Position numbers and translations under genes: made by a program. 41,639 bases of DNA, taken from contig JAITAB010000052.1 in the NCBI GenBank assembly GCA_031284315.1, forward strand, positions 1 to 41,639. Direction: 5' to 3'. This DNA comes from Campylobacteraceae bacterium. Its GTDB lineage: Bacteria; Campylobacterota; Campylobacteria; Campylobacterales; Campylobacteraceae. Within the stretch, counting starts at the first letter, position 1. Every line of letters starts with the position of its first letter. The notes below the pieces were generated by a model that saw only the letters and a list, made by a program, of their open reading frames with translations, was not told the DNA's origin and ran no database searches. Of this stretch, positions 19,426 to 26,911 are shown one piece after another.

Positions 19426-19598
19426 GTTAAAAAGCTTTTTAAGAAAGCTTTGTCAAAATGAAAAATTATGATTTGGGAATGCCTTAAGAGTATATGTTAC
19501 TTTTTTACACAATAGAGCAAAAACAGCAGACAATGTGTGTAATTTTAGAGTATGAAAAATTTAAAAAGACAAAAGCCATGAAGCCGCCGCCTTTTTAA

Positions 19599-20421
19599 AA
19601 ATCAATACAACGCTTGTGTCGGTTCATGCCGCCTAAGCAGGAAGCCTTACTTTTAGGGTTTAATATTTCAATACAACTTTTGTGTCGGTTCATGGGAGCT
19701 TTCTAAACTGAATACCGAAAAACAAAATCTATTTCAATACAACTTTTGTGTCGGTTCATGAATTAGCCGCGCGGAGGACATAGGCGCGGCTAATATATTT
19801 CAATACAACTTTTGTGTCGGTTCATGCTTAGTATTTCAAGTGTCCAATTGATAGGATATGTCATTTCAATACAACTTTTGTGTCGGTTCATGAAATTTGT
19901 TTTATCGCGGATATGCTTGCTACGGTTGAATTTCAATACAACTTTTGTGTCGGTTCATGAAGCGATTTTACCATTTATGAAGATGGAGACTACGAATTTC
20001 AATACAACTTTTGTGTCGGTTCATGAGATTTGTTAAGGACGCAAGTCCTAAAAAATTACCTATTTCAATACAACTTTTGTGTCGGTTCATGCGAATTACA
20101 TATTTTTCATTTTTGCTTACGATATTAATTTCAATACAACTTTTGTGTCGGTTCATGCAGCAGAGCAGGCAGGCTTACAAGATATATACAAAAAATTTCA
20201 ATACAACTTTTGTGTCGGTTCATGAATTACAAACTTGAACTTGTATGCAAAGTTGATACATTTCAATACAACTTTTGTGTCGGTTCATGGATTACTATAA
20301 TAGCTCTTTAGGAGCAGGCACAGTATTTCAATACAACTTTTGTGTCGGTTCATGAGGCTATATTGTTAGATACATTACAGACAATAACAAGATTTCAATA
20401 CAACTTTTGTGTCGGTTCATG
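19599..20421 (-). CRISPR. CRISPR array, 13 repeats and 12 spacers, no cas genes nearby
   Basis: A 30-bp repeat (plus strand begins ATTTCAATAC, ends TCGGTTCATG) starts at 19599, 19665, 19731, 19797, 19863, 19930, 19996, 20062, 20128, 20195, 20260, 20325 and 20392. Spacers are 35-37 bp and all different. Repeats 2-13 are identical; repeat 1 differs at four positions, marking the old, leader-distal end. On the minus strand the repeat ends ATTGAAAT, which resembles the AUUGAAA(C/U) 5' handle of type I-B/III crRNAs. Both facts put the leader on the right and transcription on the minus strand. No cas gene is in the window, so effector complexes must come from elsewhere or the array is orphan. Short open frames across it are repeat translations. 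Confidence 0.98.
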
Positions 20422-20600
20422 GAAGAAAAATAGGCTGTCTTAAAAAAGACGACCCCCTTAAATCCGTTGTTTTTTGAACTTTTTCCAACCATTTTGACAG
20501 TGATAAGTCAAAGAGCGAAAAAAATATCAGAAAGCGTTATTTTAGCGATATTTTCATAAAAATAGCAAAAAACTGCTGGAAAAATTTGCCTGTAAATGAT
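20422..20600 (-). promoter_or_regulatory. probable CRISPR leader
   Basis: About 180 bp, strongly AT-rich with long T runs on the minus strand, between the newest (intact) repeat at 20421 and the thioesterase stop at 20601. It contains a small inverted repeat, GTCTT...AAGAC, around 20437-20450 just before the first repeat. Position and composition fit a leader; no specific leader motif is recognised. Confidence 0.5.
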
Positions 20601-21026
20601 TTACAATTTTGGCTCATAATTTTCGTCAGCAATATATTTTGTTAATAATTCATTTGGAATTTTGCTCGGCTTTCCGCTTGCGTTCAGATATATCCACACG
20701 GTTTTTGCACGCGCCAAAAGCACTCTGTCGCTTATCCTAAAAAACGCATATTCGCGGTTGGAAATGGAGCGTTTTATGGAGCTTATCCATGTCTGCACGA
20801 CCAATTCTTCTCCCAAAAATGCGGCTCTCAGGTACTCTATGTAGTGCGAGCGCGCAACCCATGTGCCGCCTATTTTTTCGTAAAACGCGCTTGTAAATCC
20901 CAACGAATCCGAATGCGCCGTAGCGGCATCCTGCATCCACTGCACATAAACTACATTATTGACATGCATATTTGTATCAATCGCACTTTGAGGTACGATT
21001 ATTTTATGTTCATAGATTATTGACAT
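20601..21026 (-). CDS. acyl-CoA thioesterase, hotdog fold (4HBT/YbgC-like)
   Basis: A 141-residue single hotdog-domain protein. The active-site segment DTNMHVNNVVYVQWMQDA (Asp17 and His21 region, followed by the N-N-x-x-Y-x-x-W pattern) is the signature of the 4-hydroxybenzoyl-CoA thioesterase/YbgC family, and the rest (GTWVARSHYIEYLRAAFLGEELVVQTWI) follows the same fold. It probably hydrolyses short- or medium-chain acyl-CoAs or acyl-ACP in the cytoplasm; the substrate cannot be read from sequence. It lies 23 bp after the methyltransferase gene on the same strand. Confidence 0.85.
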   Translation of the reverse strand: MSIIYEHKIIVPQSAIDTNMHVNNVVYVQWMQDAATAHSDSLGFTSAFYEKIGGTWVARSHYIEYLRAAFLGEELVVQTWISSIKRSISNREYAFFRISDRVLLARAKTVWIYLNASGKPSKIPNELLTKYIADENYEPKL

Positions 21027-21049
21027 AATTACTCCAAATTTTCATAAAA

Positions 21050-22045
21050 TTATTTCCGCAAAATGTGCAGATATTCAAGCGTAGAATTCGCCTTATACGC
21101 CCTTTTGCTGTCTGCCTTGTAGCGTTGATACTCTTTTTTTATCAAATCATATTCGCCGTACTTTTGCATGATTTGCCTTATCTCATTTTCGCTCATGAGA
21201 CCTTCGTTATTATAGCTTAAAAAAGTATATTTAAAATCCGCGTTTTTTATCAAATCCTCAAAGCTGCCGAGCGCTTTTTGTTTTTTGCAGTAATCAGAAC
21301 GATGATATTTTCTCATGCCCGTTTTGCCCTCAGGCGTGAAATTATCGTATTTGGCGATAGTATTTAAGATGTGATAATTCGCCCCATACTGTCTTTCGTT
21401 ATACGGCGGGTCAAGGTATAAAATATCGCCGCTGATTTTCCTTATCAGGATATTGCTATCTTCCCGATATGCCTCATGAGCGTTATCATTTAATTCAAAA
21501 GTTGATGGTAAAATATCCATGCTCTTTTGCGCCGAAGGTTTTAAATTTTTCAGAAACGCTCCATAAACAGAAGCTGTATTTGCAATTTTATCGGCGCTTT
21601 CAAGCAAAGATGCGAGTAAAAAATAGTATGTATCATTATCTATTTCCCCGCCCTCTTTCCATTCATTTATCGCAACTCTTACCGCATCTATTTTTTTGCC
21701 GTTTTCATCGCTGAAATACTGCCTGCCGCTGCCGCTTCCCAAGCAGTAATTTTGGTATATGAAGCCGTCTTCGCGCAAAGGCAAAAGATTCAGTTCGCGT
21801 AGTAAATCAGGCGCATTTGGAATTATCTTGTGGTTTTGTATGTAATTTCTGCAAAGAATATAGCTATACTCTTCCATGTCGTTGCTGATGACTTTTTTGA
21901 CAAGTTTTTTGAAAACCCTGCCTATCGTTCCCGTGCCGGCAAATATATCGCAAAAAACCTTTTCATGCAGCGCGCCATCGGTTCTTTGGGTTATTTCGTC
22001 TTTTATCCACTGCGAAAGCTTGACTTTTGAGCCTATATAGTTCAT
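21050..22045 (-). CDS. N6-adenine DNA methyltransferase (D12/Dam-type class)
   Basis: A 331-residue methyltransferase with N-terminal MNYIGSKVKLSQWI, SAM-binding FCDIFAGTGTIGRVFK (residues about 31-46), and catalytic DPPYNERQYGANYH near residue 213. The order (SAM motif first, DPPY later) is that of alpha/D12-type m6A enzymes such as Dam. The internal segments GSGSGRQYFSD and ESADKIANTASVYGAFLK resemble, from memory, the HpyAI/NlaIII-type CATG methylases, so CATG is my best guess for the target; this is not proved. No restriction endonuclease of a known family is adjacent, so it is an orphan methylase or part of a system with the divergent gene at 22215. It contains no GATC. Confidence 0.88.
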   Translation of the reverse strand: MNYIGSKVKLSQWIKDEITQRTDGALHEKVFCDIFAGTGTIGRVFKKLVKKVISNDMEEYSYILCRNYIQNHKIIPNAPDLLRELNLLPLREDGFIYQNYCLGSGSGRQYFSDENGKKIDAVRVAINEWKEGGEIDNDTYYFLLASLLESADKIANTASVYGAFLKNLKPSAQKSMDILPSTFELNDNAHEAYREDSNILIRKISGDILYLDPPYNERQYGANYHILNTIAKYDNFTPEGKTGMRKYHRSDYCKKQKALGSFEDLIKNADFKYTFLSYNNEGLMSENEIRQIMQKYGEYDLIKKEYQRYKADSKRAYKANSTLEYLHILRK

Positions 22046-22188
22046 TGCGGTTTCTCTCTTTTTTCTTTTGGTTCATCTTCCAATAATTCAACAGGACTTA
22101 CTTCTAAAAAAGAGATAAGTTTATCAAAAACAAGTAAAATTGTAAATAGAATATTTAAGTTTAAGTCTATTTTAAGTAAAATATCTAC
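22042..22188 (-). pseudogene. possible remnant of a gene upstream of the methyltransferase
   Basis: A 48-codon open stretch on the minus strand ends in a TGA that overlaps the methyltransferase ATG (ATGA), the coupling typical of real gene junctions. It reads like a gene C-terminus, with LLVFDKLISFLEVSPVELLED then a Lys/Glu-rich tail, vaguely like the end of an XRE-type regulator. An in-frame stop precedes it and no ATG, GTG or early TTG is available, so it cannot be translated alone. It may be the surviving 3' end of a gene cut off when the neighbouring 22215 gene arrived, or chance. Confidence 0.25.
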
Positions 22189-22192
22189 TTAA
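22155..22192. promoter_or_regulatory. operator-like cluster of TTAAGT sites between divergent genes
   Basis: TTAAGT occurs at 22155-22160, 22161-22166 (tandem) and 22172-22177, and inverted (ACTTAA) at 22187-22192. The last two form a perfect inverted repeat TTAAGTA-N7-TACTTAA (22172-22192) that covers a possible -10 box TAAAAT (22177-22182) for the gene at 22215. The pattern suits a dimeric repressor or controller protein acting on the divergent pair. Confidence 0.4.
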
Positions 22193-22214
22193 TTTTCCGC
22201 CTGAGGAGGCTTGC

Positions 22215-23711
22215 TTGGATACAGACAATTTTGCAAAATATAGTATGTATATAGACGACGCGAAAGAGTTTTTTGAAAATAATTTTGAAAAAATTAAAGC
22301 TCTTTTCGATAATAATATATTGCGCGATTTTATCCTTGAGCCTTTCCAAGATATTATAAAAGCGAGCGCTCCAAAGATCGATAATCATATTTACGGTATT
22401 ATCACGCAAACCGCGCTTATTAACGCGGTAATAGCGGCGTTTCCCGGCAAAATGGGAATAGGCGTGTTCGTATGCGTAGCGTTCGAGGCGTATATGGCGT
22501 ATCAGATCGCTAAATATATCGGAGTGGAAATCAAAAAACCTTCCGATATTTTTGATCATTTTGGCATAATCGCAAGCGGCGCTATCGGCATTACTTGGGG
22601 ATTCAAAACTTTGCTTTCTTTCATCTGCTCTACGCTCTCGTTTATTCCGTTTATCAATCCATTTATTATCGCGGAATTTTTGACGACGAATTTTATTGGC
22701 GTTATGTTTTGGACGGGATTTAAGACGATGAAAACAAACGGTTCGCCTAGCCTGCCAAATCTTACGCTGGATCTTTTTGAAAAAACTAAAAATATATTCG
22801 CGTATCAATACGAGGGCATAAAGACGACATTCACAATAGATAACGTAAAATCCGCCGCCTACAAATTCAAAGCGTGGATTACGGGCGAAATAGCGCAGGA
22901 CGTTAAAGCGTATAACGGGGAGATATTTTGCGCCGCCGCAATGATATATCTAATCAGCGATCGCGCGGAAAAATTAGGCGGCGAGTTGGGGCAAACGTTT
23001 TTGGAAGCAATCCGCTTGCGATGGTCTGTCCAACTGCCTCCCGACGCTACGATCGAGGAAATATCCGAGTTGTTCTCCGAATATAATAGCGAGCAACTTA
23101 TCGGCGCTATAAACGTTATTAAAGGCAAAATGTTCGAGTTGTTGGTCGCCGCCGCAGAAAACAACGACGGCGACAACATAAAAGCCTCGCTTTTTACGGA
23201 CGAATCGCACCCCGATTCGGATATTGTATTTATCGATCAAGACAGCGGCAGAAATATAGAAGTTTCGCTAAAAGCCACAGACGATCCGCAATATATAGAA
23301 CGCGCGCTTCAAAAATATCCCGACACTCCCATTATGACTACGCAAGAAATGAGCGAGTATTTTGGAGATAATCCATTGATTGCGCCAAGCGATATTTCAA
23401 ACGAATATCTCGAAAAAATTACGCATGAAAATATGGATAAACTCTTAAACGAAATCGAGCCGATAAACGCCGCGCAAGTCGCCGTTGGCGGAGTCGCCGT
23501 AAATATCGCCGCCGCTTTATGGCCATATACGATAGCGTATTTGCGTAAAAAAATATCGTTCGACGATTATCAAAAAGCCGTCGCAAAAATATGTCCGTCG
23601 CTTGGCTTACAATTTGCGAGCCGCGTCTCTTACGCGATTGTTTTAGGTCCGATTTTTGCGTGGTATCTGATCGCGCGAAGCGTATTTGTGATTACAAAAA
23701 CAAAAGAGTAG
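22215..23711 (+). CDS. unknown membrane protein with DUF697-like region and nuclease-like core; foreign composition
   Basis: A 498-residue protein of no family I can name. Residues about 55-170 are hydrophobic and laid out like DUF697/YcjF (ALINAVIAAFPGKMGIGVFV, then AYQIAKYIGVEI, then a second helical pair). Residues about 290-375 are soluble and look like a PD-(D/E)XK nuclease core: Glu308 in KGKMFELL, HPDSDIVF (Asp334/Asp336), EVSLKATD (Glu349, Lys353) and a following helix. Residues about 420-490 form one or two more membrane helices. The start is a TTG with a strong GAGGAGG site 5 bp upstream. Composition is unlike the surroundings: 9 GATC sites and about one CATG in 1.5 kb. It is divergent from a DNA methyltransferase and about 1.8 kb from the CRISPR array. 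A defence or mobile-element role is inference. Confidence 0.75.
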   Translation: MDTDNFAKYSMYIDDAKEFFENNFEKIKALFDNNILRDFILEPFQDIIKASAPKIDNHIYGIITQTALINAVIAAFPGKMGIGVFVCVAFEAYMAYQIAKYIGVEIKKPSDIFDHFGIIASGAIGITWGFKTLLSFICSTLSFIPFINPFIIAEFLTTNFIGVMFWTGFKTMKTNGSPSLPNLTLDLFEKTKNIFAYQYEGIKTTFTIDNVKSAAYKFKAWITGEIAQDVKAYNGEIFCAAAMIYLISDRAEKLGGELGQTFLEAIRLRWSVQLPPDATIEEISELFSEYNSEQLIGAINVIKGKMFELLVAAAENNDGDNIKASLFTDESHPDSDIVFIDQDSGRNIEVSLKATDDPQYIERALQKYPDTPIMTTQEMSEYFGDNPLIAPSDISNEYLEKITHENMDKLLNEIEPINAAQVAVGGVAVNIAAALWPYTIAYLRKKISFDDYQKAVAKICPSLGLQFASRVSYAIVLGPIFAWYLIARSVFVITKTKE

Positions 23712-23735
23712 TTTGGCAAACAAGTTATATTTTAT

Positions 23736-24218
23736 TCAAAAATCATCAGTTTGCCAATCTTTACACACATCTATCCACTTTTTATTTCGTGTGTATCGTT
23801 CCATACTTTTTATATCAAGTTCAATTGCGCTGTTTCTGCTGCCGCATGCGGGAAAAACGCTTTCGAATCGTTTGAGCGACTTGTCAAGATAGATATCAAC
23901 ATCGCCGCTTATCCCGAAAGGACAAACGCCGCCTACTTCATGCCCGATATTCGCCAAAACTTCGTCTGCTGAAAGCATTCTGACTTTCGCGCCGAATTCG
24001 GCTCTGTATTTGGCGTTATCTATCTTCGCGTCGCCTGCCATAACGATAAGAATAAATCTGTCGTTAAGCTTCAAAGAGAGTGTTTTTGCTATCCTTTTGC
24101 CTTCGCACCTGAGCGCTTTTGCCGCCAATTCCACAGTCGCGCTTGAAGTATCAAGCTCTATTATCTTTTCTTCCAAGCCAAATTGTCTGAAAAAATCTTT
24201 AACCTTATCCAATGCCAT
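23736..24218 (-). CDS. YbaK/ProX-type aminoacyl-tRNA deacylase
   Basis: A 160-residue protein of the YbaK/ProXp family, which hydrolyses mischarged tRNAs (for example Cys- or Ala-tRNAPro) in trans. Signatures are the TSSATVELAAKALRCEGKRIAKTL segment with the catalytic-site Lys near residue 45 and the GHEVGGVCPFGI loop near residues 111-122, plus the DIYLDKSLKRFESVFPACGSRNSAIELD strand region. The single domain is full length. The gene stands alone, convergent with the foreign gene at 22215 (24 bp between stops). Confidence 0.88.
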   Translation of the reverse strand: MALDKVKDFFRQFGLEEKIIELDTSSATVELAAKALRCEGKRIAKTLSLKLNDRFILIVMAGDAKIDNAKYRAEFGAKVRMLSADEVLANIGHEVGGVCPFGISGDVDIYLDKSLKRFESVFPACGSRNSAIELDIKSMERYTRNKKWIDVCKDWQTDDF

Positions 24219-26233: not shown

Positions 26234-26911
26234 TTAAATTTGTGCTATTAGAGCGCACTCTTTGGGCGGATTTTCGCCGTTTTCATGCGCCGCTAATTTG
26301 TTGATTTTTTTATTGTCGTTTTTCGGCAGCGTTTTTTTGATTGCCGCCAACTCTTTCAATTCCCTTGAATTTATATAATCCTTCAAGGAACTGCGGCTAA
26401 ATCCAAGCGCTTTGGCGATATAATTTACCGATACGCCCTCTTCAAGCATATCTACTATTGCCGCTCTATTGTCGTCAAATTTTGACCTTGACATTCTGCC
26501 CTTAGGTCGTCCCGCATGCATCTCTTTTGAAGGATTTAGATTTAACTCGCGCTGTTTTGCCAAAAGCTCCAACACTTGAAAAAGCGGAGTCTGTTTTGAT
26601 ACGATAAAATGTTTATTACATATATGGAGCGTGATATTTCGGCGCAGCAAGCACTCAAATATCTTCACAAGTTCGTCCACTTTGTGCGTAAGCGACCAAA
26701 GGTCGTACACAAGTACGGTATCATTGGGCTTCAAAGAACGCAGAAAGCCTTTCAAGCTTTTCCTCTCTTCCAAAATCGTCTCGTTTGAAGAGTTGTCTAT
26801 CTCCGTTGCATGCACGCTAAAATCGTTAGAAAGAGCATATTTTAAAATCTGCTTTTGCTGCGCTGCGATATTGCTTTGGAAATCTCTATTTTTTAAAAGA
26901 ATGACAGCCAC
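26234..26911 (-). CDS. serine-recombinase-like protein lacking catalytic residues
   Basis: A 225-residue protein with the layout of a resolvase/invertase: N-terminal domain (residues 1-125), a GRPKGRMSRSKFDDNR linker, and a C-terminal Hin-type HTH (AAIVDMLEEGVSVNYIAKALGFSRSSLKDYI). Aligning the start to the usual Y-x-R-V-S-T-x-x-Q pattern puts Asn8 where the nucleophilic Ser should be, and the downstream L-D-R-L-x-R-S motif reads LWSLTHKV, so the catalytic arginines are gone too. It should bind DNA but not recombine it. Homologues annotated as invertase-like recombinases occur near ccoG in other Campylobacterota, as far as I recall, which suggests a fixed regulatory role. Its stop lies 11 bp before the ccoG start. 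Confidence 0.8.
   Translation of the reverse strand: MAVILLKNRDFQSNIAAQQKQILKYALSNDFSVHATEIDNSSNETILEERKSLKGFLRSLKPNDTVLVYDLWSLTHKVDELVKIFECLLRRNITLHICNKHFIVSKQTPLFQVLELLAKQRELNLNPSKEMHAGRPKGRMSRSKFDDNRAAIVDMLEEGVSVNYIAKALGFSRSSLKDYINSRELKELAAIKKTLPKNDNKKINKLAAHENGENPPKECALIAQI

Follow-up and report, generated by a model that had tools for sequence, protein, structure and literature searches.

A predicted membrane-anchored protein with a PD-(D/E)XK-like core, a candidate defence nuclease, in a Campylobacteraceae genome

SNIPE is a defence protein in which a membrane anchor is joined to a GIY-YIG nuclease that cuts phage DNA during injection; it becomes toxic once the anchor is removed, and its N-terminal part differs greatly from one homologue to another (PMC13190303). 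Its example showed that a position at the membrane can be enough for a nuclease to discriminate between phage DNA and that of the cell. Kiwa and Zorya are likewise membrane-coupled defences that act where the phage enters (PMC12904381). Here, we describe a protein encoded in a window of 41,639 nucleotides (the whole stretch of DNA that was analysed) from a Campylobacteraceae bacterium. Kiwa and Zorya are multi-protein systems whose components are unrelated to it. The likeness to SNIPE is closer, in that both are single proteins combining an anchor with a nuclease or nuclease-like core, and in both families the anchor varies while the nuclease is conserved. SNIPE has features of its own, namely the GIY-YIG domain, a DUF4041 DNA-binding domain and one short membrane helix near the N terminus, whereas in the window protein a PD-(D/E)XK-like core is flanked on each side by multiple helices. 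GIY-YIG and DUF4041 gave no Pfam match in the window protein, and its predicted fold differs; the resemblance is one of analogy, not kinship.

The gene is a 498-codon open reading frame starting with TTG, and the open reading frame listing places it at 22215-23711 on the forward strand, as the earlier note on this DNA had it. A protein 49% identical over residues 4-493 is encoded in an Arcobacteraceae genome (apparently the same MAG as locus L016), so we regard it as virtually certain that the frame is a real gene and not a chance one. The earlier note had read a membrane-soluble-membrane layout, and hydropathy and the structure model agree, with hydrophobic stretches at about 57-172 and 416-495 and a soluble part between; the residues it named (E308, D334, D336, E349, S351 and K353) are all present in the protein. 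The features of the gene, all on the forward strand, are as follows.

22203..22209, forward strand: ribosome-binding site GAGGAGG, 5 bases 5' of the TTG (sequence)
22215..23711, forward strand: gene for the predicted membrane-anchored nuclease-like protein, 498 aa, TTG start (open reading frame and full-length homologues)
22383..22730, forward strand: N-terminal membrane module, residues 57-172, predicted to form four hydrophobic helices and at best DUF697-like (hydropathy, model helices, weak hhalign match to a DUF697-type partner)
22977..23450, forward strand: predicted PD-(D/E)XK-like core, residues 255-412, with the PDC-M72B match at 278-437 (PADLOC match, AlphaFold2 model, Foldseek)
23136..23138, forward strand: Glu308, invariant, in the helix preceding the sheet (59/59 relatives)
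23220..23222, forward strand: Asp336, invariant, candidate catalytic Asp (59/59 relatives)
23265..23273, forward strand: Ser351-Leu-Lys353, the [Q/S]-x-K motif, with K353 invariant and residue 351 Gln in 52/59 (alignment)
23298..23300, forward strand: Glu362, in the helix past the K353 strand, which may serve the S-x-K clade as a displaced acidic ligand (alignment; precedent in PMC4652773)
23469..23705, forward strand: C-terminal membrane helices, residues 419-497 (hydropathy, model)

Pfam, NCBIfam and PHROGs recognised no domain in the window protein, a PHROGs search with the core set returned nothing useful, and sequence searches of the PDB brought up nothing beyond designed helical proteins and other hits that look like chance. 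The PADLOC models named PDC-M72B matched residues 278-437 (2.3e-24 and 5e-17). On these sequence matches the window core is a clear M72B member, and its family is thus already catalogued, although M72B itself is only a candidate defence family; the PADLOC candidate names trace to Payne et al. 2024 and its guilt-by-embedding set, which PMC12988326 cites. The earlier note knew of no described family with this order of domains. That view has to be narrowed to the layout, since the core family is in the catalogue, whereas the window protein departs from it by a core fused between membrane modules and by S-x-K in place of Q-x-K. The literature searched contained no mention of PDC-M72 or PDC-M09, and neither the fused architecture nor the S-x-K clade is described in it. 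The companion model M72A (392 positions) matched neither the methyltransferase nor ten other proteins encoded between 20.6 and 32.1 kb of the window; among the genomes or records of seven relatives it matched one, and it was not found beside the relatives checked.

We modelled the core (residues 255-412) with AlphaFold2 from 59 sequences, at pLDDT 96.1 and pTM 0.90. The model runs helix (292-316), three strands, helix, strand, helix, strand, helix, and contains the a-b-b-b-a-b order found in PD-(D/E)XK nucleases. In a Foldseek search of the core against the PDB, ranks 1-19 were without exception entries that we take to be PD-(D/E)XK nucleases, among them Can2, Ecl18kI, Bax1, cap-snatching endonucleases (influenza PA), Hjc, DdmD, MunI and SduA; Bse634I, SwaI and FokI came after rank 19. 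No match in the search passes an E value of 0.001 (best 0.07), so each is weak alone, yet the purity of the ranking is strong evidence for a PD-(D/E)XK fold. The search was informative with the core alone, that on the full-length model being swamped by helices. We therefore predict with high confidence that the core has this fold; the modelled topology is that of the superfamily, and the soluble core of the earlier reading is borne out by structure prediction and comparison.

Eight positions are invariant in the 59 sequences (G297, K303, G304, E308, N316, D336, K353 and E378). Of these, E308 occupies the position of the helix Glu of PD-(D/E)XK sites, D336 that of the Asp and K353 that of the Lys. 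Of the catalytic candidates proposed earlier, these three hold up. Asp334 and Glu349 do not: residue 334 is Gly in 53 of 59 relatives, and residue 349 is variable, with E in 32 of 46 sequences. Position 351, where the earlier note saw a weakness of the nuclease assignment in Ser standing for the usual Glu or Gln, is Gln in 52 of 59 sequences and Ser in the other seven, which are the window clade and a sequence from a Desulfovirgula MAG (L083). The Ser does not stand alone. Residue 364 tracks it (Ala with Ser in 7/7, His with Gln in 47/52), and residue 307 is Phe in six sequences, as many as the clade has members, and His in the remaining 53. These joint changes are suggestive, though only that, of a variant of the site that has been remodelled and not of a defective one; joint inheritance could also account for them.

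A source for the second acidic group may lie nearby. Ecl18kI, among the best structural matches of the core, belongs with Cfr10I and BsaWI to the CCGG-family restriction enzymes, in which an acidic residue has moved to the helix past the Lys strand and which are active with a permuted PD...K...E site (PMC6344858, PMC4652773). The BsaWI site consists of E92, D145, K165 and D175, the last ten residues past the Lys (PMC4652773). Those enzymes are soluble and sequence-specific, and we found no sequence relation between them and the window core; their activity nonetheless means that a missing second acidic residue need not kill an enzyme, and they offer a precedent for S-x-K. Glu362 in the window protein sits nine residues past K353 (eleven where a relative has an insertion of two residues) and, from the alignment, is a candidate for a displaced acidic group of the S-x-K clade. 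We also considered Glu362 as a hallmark of the S-type, which was only partly supported: it is present in 6/7 S-type and 6/52 Q-type sequences, but many Q-type sequences likewise have Glu at 362 or 363.

An alternative that bears directly on Ser351 is that catalysis is weak or lost, and that the protein stops phage replication solely by binding DNA at the membrane, in the manner of KwaB from Kiwa. KwaB binds but does not cut (PMC12904381), and the replacement of the usual Glu or Gln would fit such a loss. We consider this unlikely, because E308, D336 and K353 are invariant with the S-type clade included, because the accompanying changes at 307 and 364 look more like remodelling than decay, and because the CCGG-family enzymes cut with their permuted site. 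The S-x-K motif is unusual, as the earlier note said, but being clade-wide, accompanied by nearby changes and matched by the permuted-site precedent, it is a weaker objection than it seemed. The core is thus predicted to be an active nuclease, and probably is one.

The model places four helices ahead of the core (57-74, 81-102, 109-140 and 149-175) and two or three after it. The full-length model reached a pTM of 0.47, at which helix packing is not reliable. The protein is very likely membrane-anchored. With four helices ahead of it, the core would lie on the same side of the membrane as the N terminus, and we infer that this side is the cytoplasm.

In many relatives of the core the membrane component is of another kind, PDC-M09A. 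That M09A-type module is either fused to the core or encoded directly upstream: 25 non-redundant core proteins have a long N-terminal part, with the M09A match shown directly for Yoonia, while in Sulfitobacter the module is the gene directly upstream and the two genes overlap. The window module shows no relation to it: M09A is not among the PADLOC matches of the window protein, and hhalign gave a probability of 1% against the module that most other relatives carry. Another module appears in the Desulfovirgula MAG (L083), where the gene directly upstream of the nuclease gene encodes a Pfam DUF697 protein (4.5e-10, above the curated cut-off); in a Planctomycetota MAG (L029) the upstream gene is a weaker DUF697 match. 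The window module aligned with these DUF697-type partners weakly (hhalign probability 13%), yet at the right place, and the L083 partner holds the same architectural position. A separate hhalign comparison, of split partners with the DUF697 partners, was set aside since two sequences were present on both sides. The DUF697/YcjF-like region assigned earlier to residues ~55-170 is therefore not evident in the protein itself, which has no Pfam match to PF05128, and survives as an indirect link through the L083 neighbour. Judged from these alignments, the membrane modules that go with this one core are of at least two kinds, and probably of three.

Scanning public genomes with a profile returned five full-length homologues (L014-L018) at 42-55% identity, from Campylobacterota, Gracilibacteria and Gammaproteobacteria including SAR86. 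Together with the window protein they form a clade of six sequences with full support. Recovery of relatives depended on the query, as a single sequence scanned against the genome contigs found none and a four-sequence alignment found 73. One distant and doubtful relative, in G011 (L004), was excluded from the core set, and the match in G186 (L006) proved to be a false family match within an unrelated protein. The gene is sporadic, being present in 3/397 genomes of the phylum and 1/14 of the genus, some of which are incomplete; its wide host spread combined with this rarity points to horizontal transfer. Some homologues lie on contigs classed as viral, and tblastn found no relative in phage records. 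In another genome of the order a copy (G101:C1:135654-136682; L008-L011) is broken by several stop codons, which indicates that losses of the gene occur alongside gains. In the Arcobacteraceae MAG a gene for a 73-aa membrane protein (L016 2739-2960, forward strand) follows the nuclease gene immediately; this small gene is not conserved next to the other close relatives.

In the window itself, the gene lies in a block that is foreign to the genus and contains nothing else. The features of this site are as follows.

22111..23753, unstranded: block foreign to the genus, sister homology stopping near 22110 and resuming at 23754 (blastn against sister-genome regions)
22042..22128, reverse strand: C-terminal remnant of an XRE-type regulator, overlapping the methyltransferase start, N-terminal part missing (sequence; sister genomes)

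The flanking thioesterase (20601-21026) and ybaK-like (23736-24218) genes are adjacent in sister genomes of the genus, and the gap between them is empty in three (about 129, 37 and 83 bases in G472, G433 and G476); stop codons interrupt ybaK in G433, G400 and G476. By translations read by eye, the gap in G477, G473 and G478 holds a D12 methyltransferase and remains of a second methyltransferase, with pieces resembling an HNH enzyme in G478, which we interpret as a decaying restriction-modification system. In G400 it holds a leucine-rich repeat protein and a phosphoesterase. The ybaK-thioesterase site (window 20601-24218; L123-L131) is thus variable, being empty or occupied by decaying restriction-modification genes, by the leucine-rich repeat and phosphoesterase genes, or by the nuclease gene. 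Loci L126, L127 and L128 have an intact D12 methyltransferase, fragments of the second one, HNH-like stretches and an HTH-like regulator frame whose end coincides with the start of the methyltransferase.

Tetramer composition tells the same story of origin. Only 4 of 161 segments of equal length are as extreme as the gene, and all four fall in the region of the CRISPR array, at 19.0-21.2 kb. The composition outlier and the gap in sister homology both uphold the earlier claim of deviant tetramer content and recent acquisition, and we consider that the gene was almost certainly acquired recently. The regulator remnant reads ...SPVELLEDEPKEKREKPQ, and in G478 (L128) the same place carries a longer frame with an HTH-like N-terminal part. 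This remnant, with the restriction-modification remains in the sisters, indicates that the nuclease gene entered in place of a lost regulator and restriction part.

The divergent methyltransferase (21050-22045, reverse strand) invites the reading that it and the nuclease form an unusual two-gene restriction system, and the adjacency noticed earlier is real. Its significance as a partnership is not: the methyltransferase is 79-86% identical in DNA to its counterparts in sister genomes, which carry it in this position and have no nuclease, and so is an old resident of the genus, and no methyltransferase immediately adjoins the close relatives examined. The sister genomes largely refute the two-gene system, which we hold to be scarcely credible. 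Among the nearby window genes PADLOC found no defence genes except the methyltransferase and weak matches.

The CRISPR array that had been noted close by lies at 19596-20423. It comprises about a dozen repeats of ~30 bases (ATTTCAATACAACTTTTGTGTCGGTTCATG), the first of them degenerate; no cas gene was seen beside it, and two cas1 genes lie on other contigs of the genome (C26, C55). Further along the window, a serine-recombinase-like gene with a C-terminal helix-turn-helix (26234-26911, reverse strand) overlaps a ccoG-like gene.

The neighbourhoods of the relatives point toward defence. Among 100 neighbour proteins there were four type I specificity subunits, four integrases and HsdR, as well as helicases and NERD, PLD, RAMP and Fic proteins. 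Within the window clade, L014 adjoins a DpdF-like helicase and L015 a WYL regulator; elsewhere L031 adjoins a type IIG enzyme, L069 a GajB-like (Gabija-like) helicase and the Sulfitobacter pair a BrxU-type HEC-05, and UzuA lies near the Yoonia gene. In our judgement, from a survey that had no random-gene control, defence genes are enriched beside the core relatives. Defence genes near the relatives, their occurrence on viral contigs, and the invariance of D336 and K353 all accord with the nuclease and defence reading proposed earlier. No partner gene recurs across the relatives except the membrane module.

These neighbourhoods also bear on the idea that the protein is a toxin against competing bacteria, with the membrane helices serving target-cell entry. 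Some bacteriocins couple a nuclease domain to hydrophobic segments. A conserved immunity gene is absent next to the close relatives, secretion-system genes were not seen among the sampled neighbours, and the relatives adjoin defence genes and occur in viral contigs, which makes such a toxin quite improbable. A stand-alone, membrane-held nuclease with no recognisable immunity gene argues instead for defence in which specificity comes from place, and a role in defence against phage or mobile elements is likely.

A membrane-tethered DNase in a defence system, as first suggested in the earlier note, is thus the best reading. In the mechanism we propose, membrane helices on both sides would hold the PD-(D/E)XK-fold core at the cytoplasmic face of the inner membrane, and this anchoring would separate the nuclease from the chromosome. 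The core would cut DNA of phage or other foreign origin on its entry at the membrane, with E308, D336 and K353 binding metal, Ser351 replacing the usual Glu/Gln and Glu362 perhaps providing a second acidic group. The specific proposal of a one-protein, membrane-tethered anti-phage nuclease that cuts incoming DNA stands at about even likelihood.

The main rival is abortive infection, in which the membrane part would sense infection or membrane damage and switch the nuclease on, so that host and phage DNA are degraded together. Several membrane-coupled defences sense membrane perturbation (PMC12904381), and a core between two membrane modules would suit a switch. A separate sensor or antitoxin gene does not recur beside the relatives, which speaks against it, and we rate this reading as unlikely. 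Sequence alone cannot separate abortive infection from direct defence; granted a defence role, we lean slightly toward direct action at DNA entry.

More tentatively, and with less than even confidence, the family as a whole may be a widespread modular entry-site defence, with one PD-(D/E)XK core, interchangeable anchors and an S-x-K clade with a rearranged active site, forming an independent counterpart of SNIPE that cuts DNA at injection. If an unrelated nuclease does act in the manner of SNIPE, the strategy has evolved more than once, the exchangeable membrane modules would reveal parts of the entry process that are open to defences, and a catalogued candidate family spanning several bacterial phyla would gain a function. 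As a further observation on the neighbourhoods, in two Bacillota MAGs (L023 and L045) the nuclease gene lies directly upstream of type III CRISPR genes, with Cas10 in L045.
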